Assembly: GCA_902783025.1 (NCBI GenBank)
Contig: CACZPH010000050.1
Location: forward strand, 1-32,181
Origin: an uncultured Eubacteriales bacterium
Lineage (GTDB): Bacteria > Bacillota > Clostridia > Christensenellales > Pumilibacteraceae
Length of the DNA stretch: 32,181 nucleotides
Reading direction: 5' to 3'
Under the pieces are notes generated by a model. That model was not told where the DNA came from and searched no databases. It saw only the letters and a program-made list of their open reading frames with translations. Below, in pieces: positions 5,156 to 13,685 of this stretch; within the stretch, counting starts at the first letter, position 1, and every line of letters begins with the position of its first letter. Made by a program: the position numbers and the translations under genes.

Positions 5156-5181
5156 ATGAATAGAAAGCGCAAAAAAGTCAA
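5153..5181 (-). promoter_or_regulatory. sua5 promoter, leaderless layout
   Basis: On the minus strand TTGACT (5176-5181), a 17-base spacer and CATAAT (5153-5158) are followed by six bases and then the ATG. Transcription would begin at or next to the A of the start codon. Confidence 0.75.
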
Positions 5182-5191
5182 GAATTTGGGT

Positions 5192-5929
5192 ATGAAAAAT
5201 AAATTTAGATTGTTTGCTGACGCGGTTTTGTCGTTCGCGGCGTTTTACCTGTGCTTTTCGCTTATATCGGACGCGTTTCGTCTTCCGTCGCCGCAGAGCC
5301 GGATATGGTGCGTCGTAGAAACCCTGCTCGCGCAAAACGTATATATCAAAAAAAGCGCGATCTCTACCCTTGATGCTCGGAAAATTTCGGATTTCAAAAA
5401 CGCTCTCGACTTTTATATCAAAGATCCTTTCGAATACTTTTTCGCCGCGCTGGCAAAGCGCTACGAATGCGCGAAAACGAACGGGTTTATCGTGGTAAAC
5501 GAGCGCGTTTCGGTGGCGGTAAAAGTTTCTGCGCCGCTTACGTACGCCGGAGTATGCGAAATATACCGCAATTCTCCGACCGAAAACGTAATTATTCTCT
5601 GTCTTTGCGCCGAAAAAAAGTCTTTGCGTATTTGCGCGGCTCTCGACAAAAATATCACGGTATGGCAAGAAAAACAAACGGTAAACCTGCTCTCTTTTCT
5701 CGATTCGGTACCACGCAAACGCTCCGCCTTCAAAAGACCGAAATTGAGCGATCTTACGCGTCTCGGCGACGCGCGTTTGTCCAAAAGATACTTACTCGGA
5801 GCGATCGCTATCCTTTCTCTCGCGTCTTTGAGTCCGATGAAAAACTACTACGTCGCGTTCGCCGTAATATTGCTCGTCGTCGCTCTCATTCCGCCGCTTA
5901 TCGGAAGCGCCTCGGGCAAAACTTCATAG
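5192..5929 (+). CDS. membrane protein of unknown function with a possible REase-like soluble domain
   Basis: From the ATG at 5192 the product is 245 residues; a further ATG at 5156 would add 12 lysine-rich residues but abuts the -10 box. There is one membrane segment near residues 10-28 and one or two near 203-238, with a soluble middle domain. That middle contains VSVAVKVSAPLTYAGVCEIY, then a hydrophobic strand (VIILCLC) and a helix-strand ending NITVWQEKQTVNLL. This order recalls the core of Mrr-like PD-(D/E)XK folds, but the acidic catalytic residues are not evident. It stands alone, divergent from sua5. I do not recognise a named family with confidence. Confidence 0.75.
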   Translation: MKNKFRLFADAVLSFAAFYLCFSLISDAFRLPSPQSRIWCVVETLLAQNVYIKKSAISTLDARKISDFKNALDFYIKDPFEYFFAALAKRYECAKTNGFIVVNERVSVAVKVSAPLTYAGVCEIYRNSPTENVIILCLCAEKKSLRICAALDKNITVWQEKQTVNLLSFLDSVPRKRSAFKRPKLSDLTRLGDARLSKRYLLGAIAILSLASLSPMKNYYVAFAVILLVVALIPPLIGSASGKTS

Positions 5930-5988: not shown

Positions 5989-8900
5989 TCAGAATATCTT
6001 CTTGATAAACTTAAACGCGAACGCAAGCGCGCACATGGAGAATATAAGCGAGAGCGTCTCGAGCGCCTTTGCTCCGCACGACGACGACTTTTTGCCGCCG
6101 TCCGACGGTTTGTCGGGATTATCGGGCTGATTCTTGAGTTCCTCGATCCTTGCTTCCGCCGCGGTAAGTACGTCTGTTCCGGACACGAACGCCTTTTGGT
6201 CTTCGGTAAGTCCGTCGTACGCCGCGCGAGCCGCCGCTACCGCGCTTTCGTCGCTAAGAGTAACGTCGGAGGGAAGCGCCGAAATAAGTCCGTCTACTCT
6301 TTCGGCAGTCTCTCTGTCGGCCGCTTCTTTCTTGAGTGCGAGAATAGCGGCTTCCGCATCTTCGAGAGCGCTGAGGTTGAGAACGTACGTCTTTTGCTCC
6401 TCGGTAAGCGCTTCGTACGCCGCGCGAGCCGCCGCTACCGCGCTTTCGCCACTAAGAGTAACGTCGGAGGGAAGCGCAGAAATAAGTCCGTCTACTCTTT
6501 CTGCAGCCTCTCTGTCGGCCGCTTCTTTCTTGAGTGCGAGAATAGCGGCTTCCGCATCTTCGAGAGCGCTGAGGTCGGTAACGAGCGCCTTTTGGTCTTC
6601 GGTAAGTCCGTCATACGCCGCGCGAGCCGCCGCTACCGCGCTTTCGTCGTCAAGAGAAACGTCGGAGGGAAGCGCCGAAATAAGTCCGTCTACTCTTTCG
6701 GCAGCCTCTCTGTCGGCCGCTTCTTTCTTGAGTGCGAGAATAGCGGCTTCCGCATCTTCGAGCGCGCTGATGTTGAGAACGTACGTCTTTTGCTCCTCGG
6801 TAAGCGCTTCGTACGCTTCGCGAGCCGCCGCGATATCCGGTTCGCTCTCGAGCGTTACGGGATCCGCGAGCGCGTCGATAGCCTCGATGACGGGACTTGC
6901 CGCCGCCATATCCGCCTTGATCTCGGCAAGACGAGCTTCGATCTGTTCGAGCCTGTCCAGCATCGTAACGTAAACTTTTTGATCGTCGGTAAGCGCGTCG
7001 TACGCTTCGCGGACCGCCGCCACTTCGGATTCGTCGTCGGCGGTAACGGTTGCGGGAAGCGGAAGATCGATTATTTTGTCGTCGACGTCTTCAGCCGCGG
7101 CGCGGTTTTCGTTGTCGATACGTTTGAGCTCGGTCATTTCTTCTTCAGCCGCGATGAGTTTGTCAAGCGTGGTAACGAGAGCCTTTTGCTCATCGTTGAG
7201 TCCGTCGTACATACCGCGAAGAATAGTTACTTGATTTTCGTCTTCGAGAGTGAGAGGCGAGGGGAGATCGTTGACGTATTCGTCGAACCGGGCAGCGGCG
7301 AGTTCGTTGTTTTCGATCTCGTCGATACGCGTGTAAAGCGCGTTGGTCGAGCCGATAACGTCGTAAACAACGTATTCTTTCGCGTCCGCGCCGAGGTCTT
7401 CGTACGCCGCCACTACTTCGTCGATCGTCGCCTTGTCGGTCTTGGCTACCGTCTCAACGGTGGGAAGAGCCTTCGCCGCTTCCCTGACGGCCTTTGCCGC
7501 AAGATACTGCGGATCGGGAGTAAAGTCGAAAGTCATTTGGTTGGCTTTCTTGAAATGTTTTCCCGCCGTGGTCGAATAGTTTTCTACCGTTACGGCATTA
7601 CCGTCCGCGGAGAAATGAAGAAGCGTCACAACTCCCACCGGCGTGAAATCCCTGTCGGTGAACTGGAAGTCGAATAGCGCTTGAGTCACTACGTTGCCGT
7701 ATTTTCCGCGCGACGTGTAAACTACAGCGTTGTCGAACGGATCGTGTCCGTTGGCAACGAACATAACGTTTTCGTGGTTTCTGACGAATTTCTGCCATAT
7801 ACCTTCGCCGTCGTTGTAGTCGGTGCGGTTGGCGTTGTCGCCGACGTCGGTCGAAGCGGACGGAACGCAAACGTCGCCGGTGCTCAAAGTCGTGCCGTTA
7901 CGGAACACGTACGCGTGAGTGGTAACTATTACTCTGCGGTCGGGATACTGATCGCAGATATTTCCCGCCCATTCGAGCGCTTCGTCGCCCGCGCCGTAAT
8001 CGAGCGTGATAAACAGGTATTTGTTGTCGTTTACGTCGAAAGTCCGGTAAGAGTTTTCGATCTCTCCCTCTTTCATAAATCCGTCGAACATCGCCCTGTA
8101 GCCGTCGTTCCAGAAATACTTGTTGGTCTGCTCGGTGGTGTCGTGATTACCTCTTACTACCGAATAATCGATACCCGCCGCTTTGAGCCGCTCGAACTGC
8201 GTTTTGGCGCGCGCCCATTCCGCGTCTTTGTCCTTGTCGGTAACGTCGCCGAGTCCGAATACCATCTTGATATTGTCGGAATCTTTACGCGAAAGGATAA
8301 AGTCGTAATAGTTATGGAATTGATATGTGTAATAGTAGTTGATAGTCTGCGTGTCGCCGATAAAAGCGAAAGTGTACGCGCTGCCGTGAACGGTTTCGTC
8401 GTCATAGAAAAGTTCGCGGTATACGACGTCGTTGCCGGCGTTCGACTCGTCTTCGATCGTCCTGTACGCCTTGTCGGTAAAGGTATAAGCGCCCAAAAGC
8501 GCGGGATCGGTCTTATCAAGCGCCGCATAGTCCGCCGCAACCTGTTCCGCCGTGCGGGACGAAGAGAAAAGCGCAACGCTTCTGATCTCGCCGGGGAAAG
8601 GATAGAGATGTCTGTGATCGTTGCCCACGAGCAGCGGATACCAGAGCGGATCTTCGTAATACTCCGCGGTCTGATTCTGCGCGCCGCTCTTCGCCTCTAC
8701 GAATTCGCCGTCGATATACAGCGAAACCGAAGCGCCGTTCTTGACTAACGCCACGTGCGTCCACTCTCCGGTGTTGATCTTGCGCGAAGAGAAAACTACG
8801 GACGCGCTGCCGCGGTTTTCGCCCCAAAGAGCGCCCGAATAGAAAAGTCTTGCCTCGTTGTTAGCCGTCATCTCGAAGCTGAGCGACGGGTTGTAGTAGT

Positions 8901-10560
8901 CGAAATAATTGCCTACGATGACGCCGCGGGAAGCGTTGGAAACCGGGACTTTTACCCACGCTTCGAAAGTTTCGGGCGCTACGTCGAGATCTTCGATCGC
9001 GTAATCCTGATCCTTGCCTACCTTGAATTCCTCGGTAGTGATCGCGGTGCCGGTAAGCGCCTTGGCGAAGTTCGACGCGTTTTTGAGATTCTTTGCGCAT
9101 AAAGCGAGCGAAGCCGACTGCGAAACGTGCTTGCCGCTGTGGATAGCGTAAAGATTACTTTCCTTCATAAAGTCGTAAGCGCTGATAAGCGCGGTATCCG
9201 CGTAGTCTTCGTCGTTGTCCTCAACGTCCGCTTTTATCTGCTCCGCGGTGCGAACGCTATCGTACGCTTTGACTTTGCAAATAGTGCCCTTGAAGTATTG
9301 CGTGTTGCCGGAACGAAGGTCTCCGCCTATACGCATATTGTTAGCCGGAACGGTGGCGAAAGGCTCGGAAGCGAAATCGGCGTTGGTGGAAGTGTTGAGA
9401 GTCTTCCTAAGTTCGCCGTTGAGGTAAAGTTTGGCTTCTTTGTTTGCGGTATCGAGCGTAAACGCAACGTGATAGAATACTCTGTCGTCGCGAAGGTCCA
9501 CGCCGCTGAAAACGAGCACTATCTGGTTGCGCGCGTTTTCCTTATCCATATAGCAGATACGCGGCACGCCGTTGGAATAAACTTCGAAACTTAAGTACGA
9601 GGTATCCGCGTCCTTGTGGTTGCCGTAAATTACTCCCGCGCGATCGGTTTGAGCCTTGGGAATGTTGACTACCGCCTCTAACGTACGGACGAGTTTGGCG
9701 GGCTTAGCGGTTTCGTCAAGGACTTTGGTCTTGGAAAACTTAAGACCTTTTGCGGGAGCGTTTACCGCGCTTTTGCCGCTGAGAAGGTCGTTACCGCTTG
9801 CGGAAAGGTCCCTAACGCGGGTCGCCGCCATGCTTACGCCGAACGCGGGATCGTATTCGTTGACGGTGTAATAATTCTTCTCGTCGGTAAAGTCGTAGGA
9901 TATGAGAAGTCCTTCGACGTTGCCTTTGACGGCTCCCGTTTTGTCCGCCGCGACCTGCTCCGCCGTGCGCGCCGTCGAGAATACCGAAAGGCTCTTGATC
10001 TTGCCCTTGAAAGGGTATTGGTTGTACGTCGAACCCGTGCGATAGTCGCCGCCTACGCGGAAAGTCGAAGCGGTAAACGCCGAAGTGAGCGGATATGCCG
10101 CCATTGCGCCCGCCTTGGTTCCGTCTATGTACACCGTCGTTTCGCTGTCGCCCAGCACGAAAGCCACGTGGACGAAGCCTTTGTTCCTTACGTCGACGGT
10201 GTTGTCGAGATTATGGTTGTAGACTACCGCTCCGCCCGCGGCCGCAAAAATGCGCGGCGAACCCTTGGCGGTTATTTCGAAGCTTACGCAGTTGATCCCG
10301 TCGTGTTCGTAACTCGAGAAAAACGTGCCCCTTACGCTCTGATCGATACTCAGGACCGCTTCTACCGTGCGCGGCAATACTTCTATCGGTTTACACGTGT
10401 CGAAAGTGTCGTACTGCGAAAACGTCATACCGTCTGTTTGCGCCTTAACCGCCGCTTCGCCGTTGAGCGCGTCAGCCTTAGCCGGCGCGGCGTAAACGAC
10501 CGCGACGAAAGCGAACAGCACGGAAAGTATAACTCCGAATAGTAAGCTTTTACGTTTCAT
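5989..10560 (-). CDS. secreted, anchored LamG-repeat calcineurin-like phosphoesterase
   Basis: This 1523-residue surface protein starts with a signal peptide (about 1-29, ending in VVYAAPAKADA). Three LamG/concanavalin-like domains follow at about 60-225, 290-460 and 525-695, each closing with an RTAEQ motif. A calcineurin-type phosphoesterase covers about 728-1012 with GDTQ (735-738), GLGDV (769-773), GNHD (804-807), a histidine at 882 and NGHD (937-940). Seven helical repeats carrying a Y-x-x-L-x-x-x-QK-type core run from about 1020 to 1475. A Pro/Gly/Ser linker, a C-G pair and one membrane helix ending in FKFIKKIF close the protein. Metal-dependent hydrolysis of a phosphoester outside the cell, perhaps on a glycan or teichoic acid, is inferred; the substrate is unknown. 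A strong AGGAG site precedes the ATG. It lies 13 bases after the RpiR gene. Confidence 0.9.
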   Translation of the reverse strand: MKRKSLLFGVILSVLFAFVAVVYAAPAKADALNGEAAVKAQTDGMTFSQYDTFDTCKPIEVLPRTVEAVLSIDQSVRGTFFSSYEHDGINCVSFEITAKGSPRIFAAAGGAVVYNHNLDNTVDVRNKGFVHVAFVLGDSETTVYIDGTKAGAMAAYPLTSAFTASTFRVGGDYRTGSTYNQYPFKGKIKSLSVFSTARTAEQVAADKTGAVKGNVEGLLISYDFTDEKNYYTVNEYDPAFGVSMAATRVRDLSASGNDLLSGKSAVNAPAKGLKFSKTKVLDETAKPAKLVRTLEAVVNIPKAQTDRAGVIYGNHKDADTSYLSFEVYSNGVPRICYMDKENARNQIVLVFSGVDLRDDRVFYHVAFTLDTANKEAKLYLNGELRKTLNTSTNADFASEPFATVPANNMRIGGDLRSGNTQYFKGTICKVKAYDSVRTAEQIKADVEDNDEDYADTALISAYDFMKESNLYAIHSGKHVSQSASLALCAKNLKNASNFAKALTGTAITTEEFKVGKDQDYAIEDLDVAPETFEAWVKVPVSNASRGVIVGNYFDYYNPSLSFEMTANNEARLFYSGALWGENRGSASVVFSSRKINTGEWTHVALVKNGASVSLYIDGEFVEAKSGAQNQTAEYYEDPLWYPLLVGNDHRHLYPFPGEIRSVALFSSSRTAEQVAADYAALDKTDPALLGAYTFTDKAYRTIEDESNAGNDVVYRELFYDDETVHGSAYTFAFIGDTQTINYYYTYQFHNYYDFILSRKDSDNIKMVFGLGDVTDKDKDAEWARAKTQFERLKAAGIDYSVVRGNHDTTEQTNKYFWNDGYRAMFDGFMKEGEIENSYRTFDVNDNKYLFITLDYGAGDEALEWAGNICDQYPDRRVIVTTHAYVFRNGTTLSTGDVCVPSASTDVGDNANRTDYNDGEGIWQKFVRNHENVMFVANGHDPFDNAVVYTSRGKYGNVVTQALFDFQFTDRDFTPVGVVTLLHFSADGNAVTVENYSTTAGKHFKKANQMTFDFTPDPQYLAAKAVREAAKALPTVETVAKTDKATIDEVVAAYEDLGADAKEYVVYDVIGSTNALYTRIDEIENNELAAARFDEYVNDLPSPLTLEDENQVTILRGMYDGLNDEQKALVTTLDKLIAAEEEMTELKRIDNENRAAAEDVDDKIIDLPLPATVTADDESEVAAVREAYDALTDDQKVYVTMLDRLEQIEARLAEIKADMAAASPVIEAIDALADPVTLESEPDIAAAREAYEALTEEQKTYVLNISALEDAEAAILALKKEAADREAAERVDGLISALPSDVSLDDESAVAAARAAYDGLTEDQKALVTDLSALEDAEAAILALKKEAADREAAERVDGLISALPSDVTLSGESAVAAARAAYEALTEEQKTYVLNLSALEDAEAAILALKKEAADRETAERVDGLISALPSDVTLSDESAVAAARAAYDGLTEDQKAFVSGTDVLTAAEARIEELKNQPDNPDKPSDGGKKSSSCGAKALETLSLIFSMCALAFAFKFIKKIF
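6191..6836 (-). repeat. 198-bp in-gene tandem repeats (helical surface repeats)
   Basis: Nearly identical 198-bp (66-residue) units recur inside the surface-protein gene; the marker CGTCTACTCT occurs at 6291, 6489 and 6687. The region around the QK core alternates between two versions 396 bp apart, so the array looks like A-B-A-B. More diverged copies continue to about 7430. The protein unit is alanine/glutamate-rich and helical with an ALKKEAADRE joint. Confidence 0.92.
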
Positions 10561-10573
10561 ATTTGTCTCCTTC

Positions 10574-11434
10574 CTATTGATATCTTATTTCTTCCAGAAT
10601 TTCGTTCTTGTTGGTGACGTGTTTTTTGAATCCGTCGTAATCGTAGGTTGCTAAAGTCATAGCGAGCGCGTCGATAATGCACAAGTGCGCCACTCGCGCC
10701 GAAACCGCCTCTACGGGGTAATTCTCTTCGTCCGCAAAAGCGCAAAGTACGTAATCGCTTTCGCTTGACAGCGGAGAATTGCGGAAACTCGTAAGCGCCA
10801 CCGTAAGCGCGCCGGCGGTTTTCGCGCGTTTTACCGCGTCGACGACCGCTTTAGTCCTTCCGCTGTGCGATACGCCTATCACCACGTCGCCTTTTTTCGC
10901 GTTGGCGGCGGTAACGTTCATGAACAGCGCGTCCGTGTACGCCGAGGCGGGAAGTCCCAACTGCGCGAATCTGTACTGCGCGTCGATGGCGATAACCGAA
11001 GACGTGCCCACGCCGAAAACGAGTATGCGTTCGGCTCCCGCCAGCGCGTCGCAAACGGCTCGCACCTGCGAAAAGTTTATCATCCCCAAAGTGTCCTTGA
11101 GCGTGCGCGAAGACGACGAGAAAACTTTGCCGAATACTTCTTCGACGTCGTCGTCCGGACTAAACGCCGGTAGTTTGTCGACCTGCCTGCCTTTTGCCGA
11201 CGACGAGATCATGTCGTCCGACGAGGCGAGCGCTATCTTAAAAGCCGAAAATCCGTCGTATCCGAGATCGTGGCAAAACCTGATGACCGCGCTGGGCGCT
11301 ACGCCGCACTCGCTTGACAAGTCCTTGGCCGTCATGTAGACGACCTTCGAGGGATAAGAAATGACGAACGAAGCGATTTTTTGCTCCGCCGCCGTAAGCT
11401 CCTTATATAAATTATGAATTTGCGCTAATACCAA
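10574..11434 (-). CDS. RpiR/MurR-family transcriptional regulator with SIS domain
   Basis: The 286-residue product has an N-terminal RpiR helix-turn-helix (about 1-75; LTAAEQKIASFVISYPSKVV, then GVAPSAVIRFCHDLGYDGF) and a C-terminal SIS domain (about 115-260) with GVGTSS and GVSHSGRT loops for a phosphosugar ligand. The start is a TTG at 11434; no ATG is in frame before the HTH, and GGGGG lies five bases upstream. It is the first gene of a two-gene unit with the LamG/phosphoesterase gene, so it probably responds to a sugar phosphate connected with that protein's substrate. The ligand cannot be read from sequence. Confidence 0.92.
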   Translation of the reverse strand: MVLAQIHNLYKELTAAEQKIASFVISYPSKVVYMTAKDLSSECGVAPSAVIRFCHDLGYDGFSAFKIALASSDDMISSSAKGRQVDKLPAFSPDDDVEEVFGKVFSSSSRTLKDTLGMINFSQVRAVCDALAGAERILVFGVGTSSVIAIDAQYRFAQLGLPASAYTDALFMNVTAANAKKGDVVIGVSHSGRTKAVVDAVKRAKTAGALTVALTSFRNSPLSSESDYVLCAFADEENYPVEAVSARVAHLCIIDALAMTLATYDYDGFKKHVTNKNEILEEIRYQ

Positions 11435-11499
11435 AACTACCCCCGCCGCGAAACATAAATAGAATTTTATTCCACGATTATTGTTTATTCTGTAATTAT

Positions 11500-11528
11500 A
11501 TTTTACTACTCGGAAAACAAATTGTCAA
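11500..11528 (-). promoter_or_regulatory. promoter of the RpiR/LamG-phosphoesterase operon
   Basis: On the minus strand TTGACA (11523-11528) and TAAAAT (11500-11505) are separated by 17 bases, about 60 bases upstream of the TTG start. Confidence 0.8.
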
Positions 11529-11532
11529 CGCT

Positions 11533-11571
11533 TTTCGCGCCGTTTGCGGCAAATAACGCGAAACGGCAAAT
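11533..11571. promoter_or_regulatory. candidate operator upstream of the RpiR promoter
   Basis: Just upstream of the -35 box two copies of CGGCAAAT lie 17 bases apart (11547-11554 and 11564-11571). The same stretch holds inverted repeats GCCGTTT/AAACGGC (11539-11545, 11561-11567) and TTTCGCG/CGCGAAA. Binding by the RpiR protein is a guess from position. Confidence 0.35.
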
Positions 11572-11613: not shown

Positions 11614-11640
11614 TAAAAAAGAGAGCGGACGAGCCGCTCC
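11614..11640 (-). terminator. thrS terminator
   Basis: A 6-bp GC stem (11623-11628 with 11634-11639) is followed on the minus strand by UCUUUUUUAUU, starting nine bases past the thrS stop. Confidence 0.85.
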
Positions 11641-11648
11641 CGATTTTG

Positions 11649-13465: not shown

Positions 13466-13685
13466 AAACCCTTAACGGATAATTCCGTCAAGGGTGCTAT
13501 GCACGGTTCCACCTTGAGTTTTACTCTCATCTCCCCTTACGCGGGCTCACGACGGCGAATACTTGTTTTCCTCGCCGCGGCTCGGGAACGGTCTTCGCCT
13601 TACCTTGCTTACGGGACTTACAGCCCAGGTCCCGACTCTCTATAAGCGGTAAATAAGGTTACTCTTTCCTTCAACGCCTTTTACG
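13466..13685 (-). promoter_or_regulatory. T-box riboswitch controlling thrS
   Basis: Read on the minus strand, the leader holds a long stem I, then the T-box AAGGTGGAACCGTGC (13501-13515), then a terminator. The terminator stem is 11 bp (13484-13494 with 13469-13479, one G-U pair) followed by UUUUUAUUUU. A candidate threonine specifier ACC followed by G lies at 13590-13592 on the 3' side of stem I. Uncharged tRNA-Thr would favour the antiterminator and read-through into thrS. Confidence 0.93.

Follow-up and report, generated by a model that had tools for sequence, protein, structure and literature searches.

An RpiR-type regulator paired with a LamG-phosphoesterase surface protein in uncultured gut Clostridia: a candidate organophosphate-scavenging unit

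The rpiR locus and its transcription unit

The window, i.e. the whole stretch of 32,181 nucleotides that was analysed, is one entire contig (G000:C50) of a 1.72-Mb metagenome-assembled genome that is 89% complete. The genome belongs to an uncultured Clostridia bacterium, the closest relatives of which come from ruminant guts. We focused on two adjacent genes on the minus strand. The upstream gene (10574-11434, minus strand) encodes a 286-aa regulator of the RpiR family, with an N-terminal HTH_6 domain (PF01418, 2.8e-18, above the Pfam cut-off) and a C-terminal SIS domain (PF01380, 4.4e-23) containing the phosphosugar-type motif SHSGRT. Its start codon is a TTG at position 11434, and the resulting N-terminus, MVLAQIHNLY, aligns with the start MIIAxIHNKF of the orthologues in the related genomes G001 and G002. 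A gap of 13 bp carrying an AGGAGA ribosome-binding site (10561-10573, minus strand) separates this gene from a 4.6-kb gene (5989-10560, minus strand) for a surface protein of 1523 residues with three LamG domains and a metallophosphoesterase domain (LamG-PDE). A first-pass annotation had described precisely this succession of an RpiR/SIS gene, 13 bases and an anchored three-LamG, calcineurin-type protein, and coordinates, Pfam matches and sequence agree with it.

A promoter scan revealed a sigma-70-type promoter (TTGACA-17-TAAAAT, 11500-11528, minus strand) upstream of rpiR, which is the sole promoter-like site between positions 5600 and 11800. Further upstream, the intrinsic terminator of thrS (11621-11641, minus strand) parts thrS from the two genes. 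Since the lone promoter-like site precedes rpiR, behind this terminator, both genes are considered to form one transcription unit. The unit contains no transporter or sugar kinase gene in the window; the first-pass annotation was right on this point for the window, but not for the relatives, in which RpiRs of the same clade adjoin an organophosphate transporter. Within the surrounding DNA, thrS, encoding threonyl-tRNA synthetase, is preceded by a T-box leader (Rfam RF00230, 93.5 bits, 13487-13683, minus strand), and a gene for a 257-aa predicted membrane protein without family match (5156-5929, plus strand) converges on the LamG-PDE gene.

Architecture of the surface protein and its phosphoesterase domain

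The LamG-PDE starts with a Sec-type signal peptide region (aa 1-31, 10468-10560, minus strand), recognised by eye. Three Laminin_G_3 stretches (9.6e-52 in Pfam) follow, the third of which is a concanavalin-like domain spanning aa 525-675 (8536-8988, minus strand), with the two others N-terminal to it. The calcineurin-type phosphoesterase domain occupies aa 724-1013 (7522-8391, minus strand). It is followed by helical repeats with units of about 65 aa (6121-7458, minus strand, approximate limits), a probable spacer or stalk, and by a SSSCG motif, a hydrophobic segment and a basic tail (5992-6087, minus strand, by eye), which resemble a membrane anchor or sorting signal. The C-terminus reads SSSCG-TM-KK, with no LPXTG motif of a sortase substrate before the transmembrane segment, and no NCBIfam model matched this anchor. 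A C-terminal transmembrane segment with a basic tail is present in 39 of the 89 LamG-PDE homologues, and in 17 of these 39 anchored proteins a GC[GSAN] motif precedes the hydrophobic segment and the basic tail. C-termini of this type include those of the window protein (5992-6087), L051, L056, L071, L077, L081, L119, L126 and L135; they may represent a signal for Cys-type sorting or lipidation in Clostridia that has not been described before.

The phosphoesterase domain matches Metallophos (PF00149) at 7.6e-07, above the cut-off. A sequence search of the PDB with the domain profile gave no match, and a fold search was used in its place, with an AlphaFold2 model of the LamG3-PDE core (mean pLDDT 80). 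By VIA-align, the phosphoesterase part is nearest to Lmo2642 (Z 21.0) and to the glycerophosphodiesterase GpdQ (Z 20.9), followed by purple acid phosphatases, the dimetal phosphatase 2nxf, Rv0805 and SMPDL3A. Concanavalin-like domains are the nearest matches of the LamG part.

Seven metal-site residues (D736, Q738, D772, N805, H806, H882 and H939, within the motifs DxQ, GD, GNHD, H and GH) are invariant in all 89 homologous domains. Compared to the canonical set DxH, GDxxD, GNHD/E, H and GHxH, all 89 domains have DxQ and GHx(non-H), the remainder being invariant; the second His of GHxH is missing throughout and is most often replaced by Pro (GHDPCD). The family thus appears to keep one metal site intact and the other altered, and catalysis would therefore need an altered first metal site. 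A Gln in place of the His of DxH is known in active ADPRM-type enzymes, one structure of which is 2nxf. We take the family to be catalytically active and to form a distinct subfamily, although inactivity of the domain is a serious alternative. Cleavage outside the cell, as proposed by the first-pass annotation, is a fair inference from the signal peptide, the anchor and the invariant metal ligands.

Conservation of the gene pair, the RpiR clade and a shared operator-like site

A family-level search of 74 genomes gave a match to the phosphoesterase domain in six. The RpiR-LamG-PDE pair is kept in all three genomes available for the genus, namely in the window, in G001:C12 (gap of about 50 bp) and in G002:C80 (gap of about 51 bp). 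A wider scan yielded 79 phosphoesterase loci, nearly all from uncultured Clostridia and, for the most part, sampled in the rumen, caecum or colon of ruminants. Among them is a second lineage, represented by two goat-gut metagenome-assembled genomes (loci L063 and L067), in which rpiR lies immediately downstream of the LamG-PDE gene on the same strand, in the order PDE-RpiR-OPA transporter-PHP. The possibility that the pair is specific to one genome can thus be discarded, given the three genus members and the second lineage. Conservation in related genomes was the check proposed in the first-pass annotation for its dedicated two-gene unit; the unit withstood it, the two lineages sharing in addition one RpiR clade and an operator-like palindrome.

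Most LamG-PDE genes have no RpiR neighbour, and the backbone of the PDE tree is unresolved, so that this tree cannot support an ancestral RpiR-PDE pairing or co-inheritance of the pair. AraC-type regulators adjoin about ten other LamG-PDE genes (e.g. L055, L056, L085, L105, L110, L117, L125, L126 and L138), mostly divergently and within about 40-530 bp, and the family therefore seems to be repeatedly wired to dedicated regulators. The family is strongly expanded within some single, small gut genomes (eight copies in G098, five in G099 and four in G616).

In a tree of 46 RpiR proteins, the window regulator falls into a clade of eight (window, G001, G002, L063, L067, G482, G616 and G629) with a support of 96/88, recovered as one change in 98% of the bootstrap trees. 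All five members from outside the genus adjoin a transporter gene of the same OPA type, four of them also a PHP gene, and a HAD phosphatase gene is added in G482. The major-facilitator transporter of L063 and L067 has its best NCBIfam matches to TIGR00881 (organophosphate:phosphate antiporter subfamily), UhpC and GlpT, and their PHP-domain protein matches the CehA/McbA metallohydrolase model; PHP relatives match a nucleoside-bisphosphate phosphatase model weakly. Given these neighbours, the lineage of the window RpiR is one associated with the uptake and hydrolysis of organophosphates. Three of the eight members (G482, G616 and G629) have no adjacent LamG-PDE gene, and the RpiR-PDE link is therefore not universal. 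Judging from the gene neighbourhoods, the clade RpiR appears to have become attached in the window genus to the surface phosphoesterase instead. The window genome has a second RpiR (contig C144), next to a different operon and elsewhere in the tree. This second RpiR gene (L058 in G000:C144, L059 in G001:C19) is divergent from an operon for a GlcD-like FAD oxidase, an Fe-S protein and an FGGY-type kinase, an arrangement also present in the relatives L232-L234.

An operator-like palindrome, GGAATAAAATTCT (RGAAYWWWRTTCY), lies upstream of rpiR at 11461-11473 (no strand assigned). The window has no other match, and chance would give 0.07. The consensus RGAAY(AAA/TTT)RTTCY is found upstream of rpiR in the window, G001 (GGAATTTTATTCT), L063 and G616 (both AGAACAAAATTCT), L067 (AGAACAAAATTCC) and G482 (GGAATAAAATTCT, as in the window). 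The site at G002:C80 (AGAATTTTATTTC) is one base off, the copy on contig C38 of that genome (AGAATTTTATTCC) is perfect, and none is present upstream of rpiR in G629. The phosphoesterase genes of L063 and L067 have their own promoter, with AGAACAAAGTTCT between its -35 and -10 boxes. The same palindrome occupies the same position at a second surface gene of L067 (205-2811, plus strand, 868 aa), which encodes LamG and GLUG domains without a phosphoesterase.

Perfect palindromes occur in only two of the 70 testable LamG-PDE promoters, those of L063 and L067, and RpiR therefore does not control the family as a whole; L070 has a site with one mismatch, for which the background is 17/558. In G098, G099 and G616, which together have 17 LamG-PDE copies, perfect sites are confined to the two copies linked to an RpiR, and the phosphoesterase orthologue of G616 retains a degenerate palindrome. 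This pattern is the strongest evidence that RpiR may control the phosphoesterase; binding of RpiR to the site, and the direction of regulation, are predictions. The palindrome is short, and most of the other genome matches inspected in the relatives fall within genes and appear to be chance occurrences. An operator-like site is conserved upstream of a pflA-like/formate-acetyltransferase operon in both genus relatives (L175 at about 4960 in G001:C2, L182 at about 4157 in G002:C62); it could be another target of RpiR or belong to a different factor.

Proposed function and alternatives

Together, the data suggest, with a probability of about 0.52, that the RpiR responds to an organophosphate and controls an extracellular phosphodiesterase, which is tethered to glycans and feeds the scavenging of phosphorylated nutrients. 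The SIS domain would sense an intracellular organophosphate of the sugar-phosphate or glycerol-phosphate type, and RpiR, via a GAAY-WWW-RTTC operator, would control its own gene and the co-transcribed LamG-PDE gene. The surface protein, which probably binds something sugar-like and cuts phosphate links, would use its LamG domains to dock on a glycan-rich target, at which the dimetal phosphoesterase would hydrolyse a phosphodiester. The phosphorylated product would then be imported, in the relatives by the adjacent OPA-family transporter, and processed inside by the PHP and HAD hydrolases of these relatives, which would close the loop to the regulator. OPA-family transporters carry small phosphate esters.

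The first-pass annotation had proposed a sense-and-cleave unit for a phosphorylated glycan or cell-wall polymer; its dedicated unit is supported, and its substrate is no more than a candidate, the nearest folds being those of glycerophosphodiesterases, phosphodiesterases acting on nucleotides, and purple acid phosphatases. The OPA transporter next to the clade RpiRs shifts the reading from sensing and cleaving alone towards cleavage, import and sensing. An OPA transporter gene is present in five relatives, but absent next to the pair in the window and G001, with none seen on the short G002 contig, and no PHP gene is adjacent to the pair in the window genus. The nearest OPA-type transporter of the window genome (contig C73, 28% identity) adjoins a glycerol-3-phosphate-oxidase-like gene, and neither this transporter nor the PHP homologue of the genome has the palindrome. 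As the C73 importer is distant, outside the unit and without operator, import in the window organism is a lead only. In a more specific and tentative form, the loci may constitute a module of gut Clostridia, not described before, for scavenging organophosphates outside the cell. In it, a LamG-tethered phosphodiesterase of the distinct DxQ...GHxx subfamily would free a phosphorylated sugar or polyol, which would enter the cell intact via an OPA-family transporter and be sensed directly by the RpiR clade via GAAY-WWW-RTTC.

The main rival explanation, although unlikely in our view, is that the phosphoesterase assists glycoside hydrolases by stripping phosphate-linked decorations off glycans of plant or host origin, RpiR sensing a post-uptake sugar phosphate and not an imported organophosphate. 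It owes this rank to the glycoside hydrolase genes that recur beside members of the family: the G001 pair lies between GH2 (upstream, with GH30 further upstream) and GH4 (downstream), and four further members of the family are followed by a same-strand GH2 gene. Furthermore, the G025 LamG-PDE gene sits within a sugar ABC-transporter operon, and that of G016 (L053, G016:C40) is directly upstream of a ribokinase and a PHP-domain gene. However, the promoters of the G001 GH4 and GH2 genes are devoid of the palindrome, and the RpiR clade is tied to an organophosphate transporter and hydrolases, not to glycoside hydrolases.

It is rather doubtful that the protein is an adhesin or glycan-binding surface protein with a non-catalysing phosphoesterase domain, RpiR only coupling its display to sugar status. 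The three LamG domains, the long stalk, the anchor and the loss of the second GHxH His would fit such a protein, as would the L067 LamG/GLUG gene under the same operator, but seven metal-site residues invariant across divergent homologues are unexpected for a dead domain, and the DxQ of active ADPRM-type enzymes, with 2nxf among the best fold matches, also speaks against it. A role in degrading nucleotides, NAD or cyclic dinucleotides outside the cell, be it for purine or ribose salvage or for blunting signalling, is improbable: the fold matches to SMPDL3A, 2nxf and Rv0805, the ribokinase and PHP genes in G016 and the weak nucleoside-bisphosphate phosphatase match of PHP relatives are in line with it, but the RpiR-linked copies have no adjacent nucleoside transporter or nucleotidase gene, and small phosphate esters are the cargo of the OPA family. 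That the pair is a lineage accident, RpiR regulating only itself or unrelated genes, is very improbable: each gene is also found without the other, but the pair recurs in two lineages with different gene orders, and the operator is present where the phosphoesterase gene has its own promoter.

The proposed control of a phosphodiesterase by an organophosphate-responsive RpiR has partial precedents. In Streptococcus pneumoniae, the RpiR-family regulator NanR binds the near-palindrome TCTGAAACTACTTTCAAA, with N-acetylmannosamine-6-phosphate as effector (PMC12713135). The window unit resembles local RpiR/MurR regulons such as those of NanR and E. coli MurR in that an HTH_6-SIS regulator lies next to the controlled genes, with a near-palindromic A/T-rich operator having GAA...TTC arms; the GAAA-N4-TTTC operator of NanR and the 11-bp GAAY-WWW-RTTC core found here are related, not identical. 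Unlike these regulons, which contain transport and catabolism genes, its predicted target is an extracellular LamG-phosphoesterase.

Secreted glycerophosphodiesterase scavenging is known from teichoic-acid turnover by GlpQ/PhoD with import by GlpT. There too, an extracellular phosphodiesterase frees a phosphate monoester for an OPA-family transporter, as predicted here, but the window enzyme is LamG-tethered, has a calcineurin-like fold (nearest to GpdQ and Lmo2642) and not the GlpQ fold, and is linked to RpiR instead of PhoPR/PhoB. GpdQ, Lmo2642, Rv0805, purple acid phosphatases, SMPDL3A and ADPRM have the same fold and agree with the window family at six or seven positions of the metal site, whereas the window family differs by DxQ (DxH in most of them), by the absence of the second GHxH His and by its fused LamG domains and stalk. 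The 79 gut-Clostridia loci have the same core architecture, most of them without RpiR neighbour. No described function of LamG-phosphoesterase surface proteins, or of RpiR with LamG, was found in the literature searched; the parts are of known kinds, and their combination, RpiR wired to an extracellular LamG-phosphoesterase with an OPA transporter in relatives, appears to be undescribed there.

LamG-phosphoesterase surface proteins are abundant in ruminant-gut Clostridia, with up to eight copies per genome. A regulator with a known class of ligand, together with the predicted operator and the OPA transporter of the relatives, provides the first concrete, testable pointer to the function of at least one of them, and suggests a small scavenging unit that has not been described before. 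If this is true, phosphodiester cleavage would be a further way for bacteria of the gut to obtain carbon and phosphate from glycans, teichoic acids or lipids.
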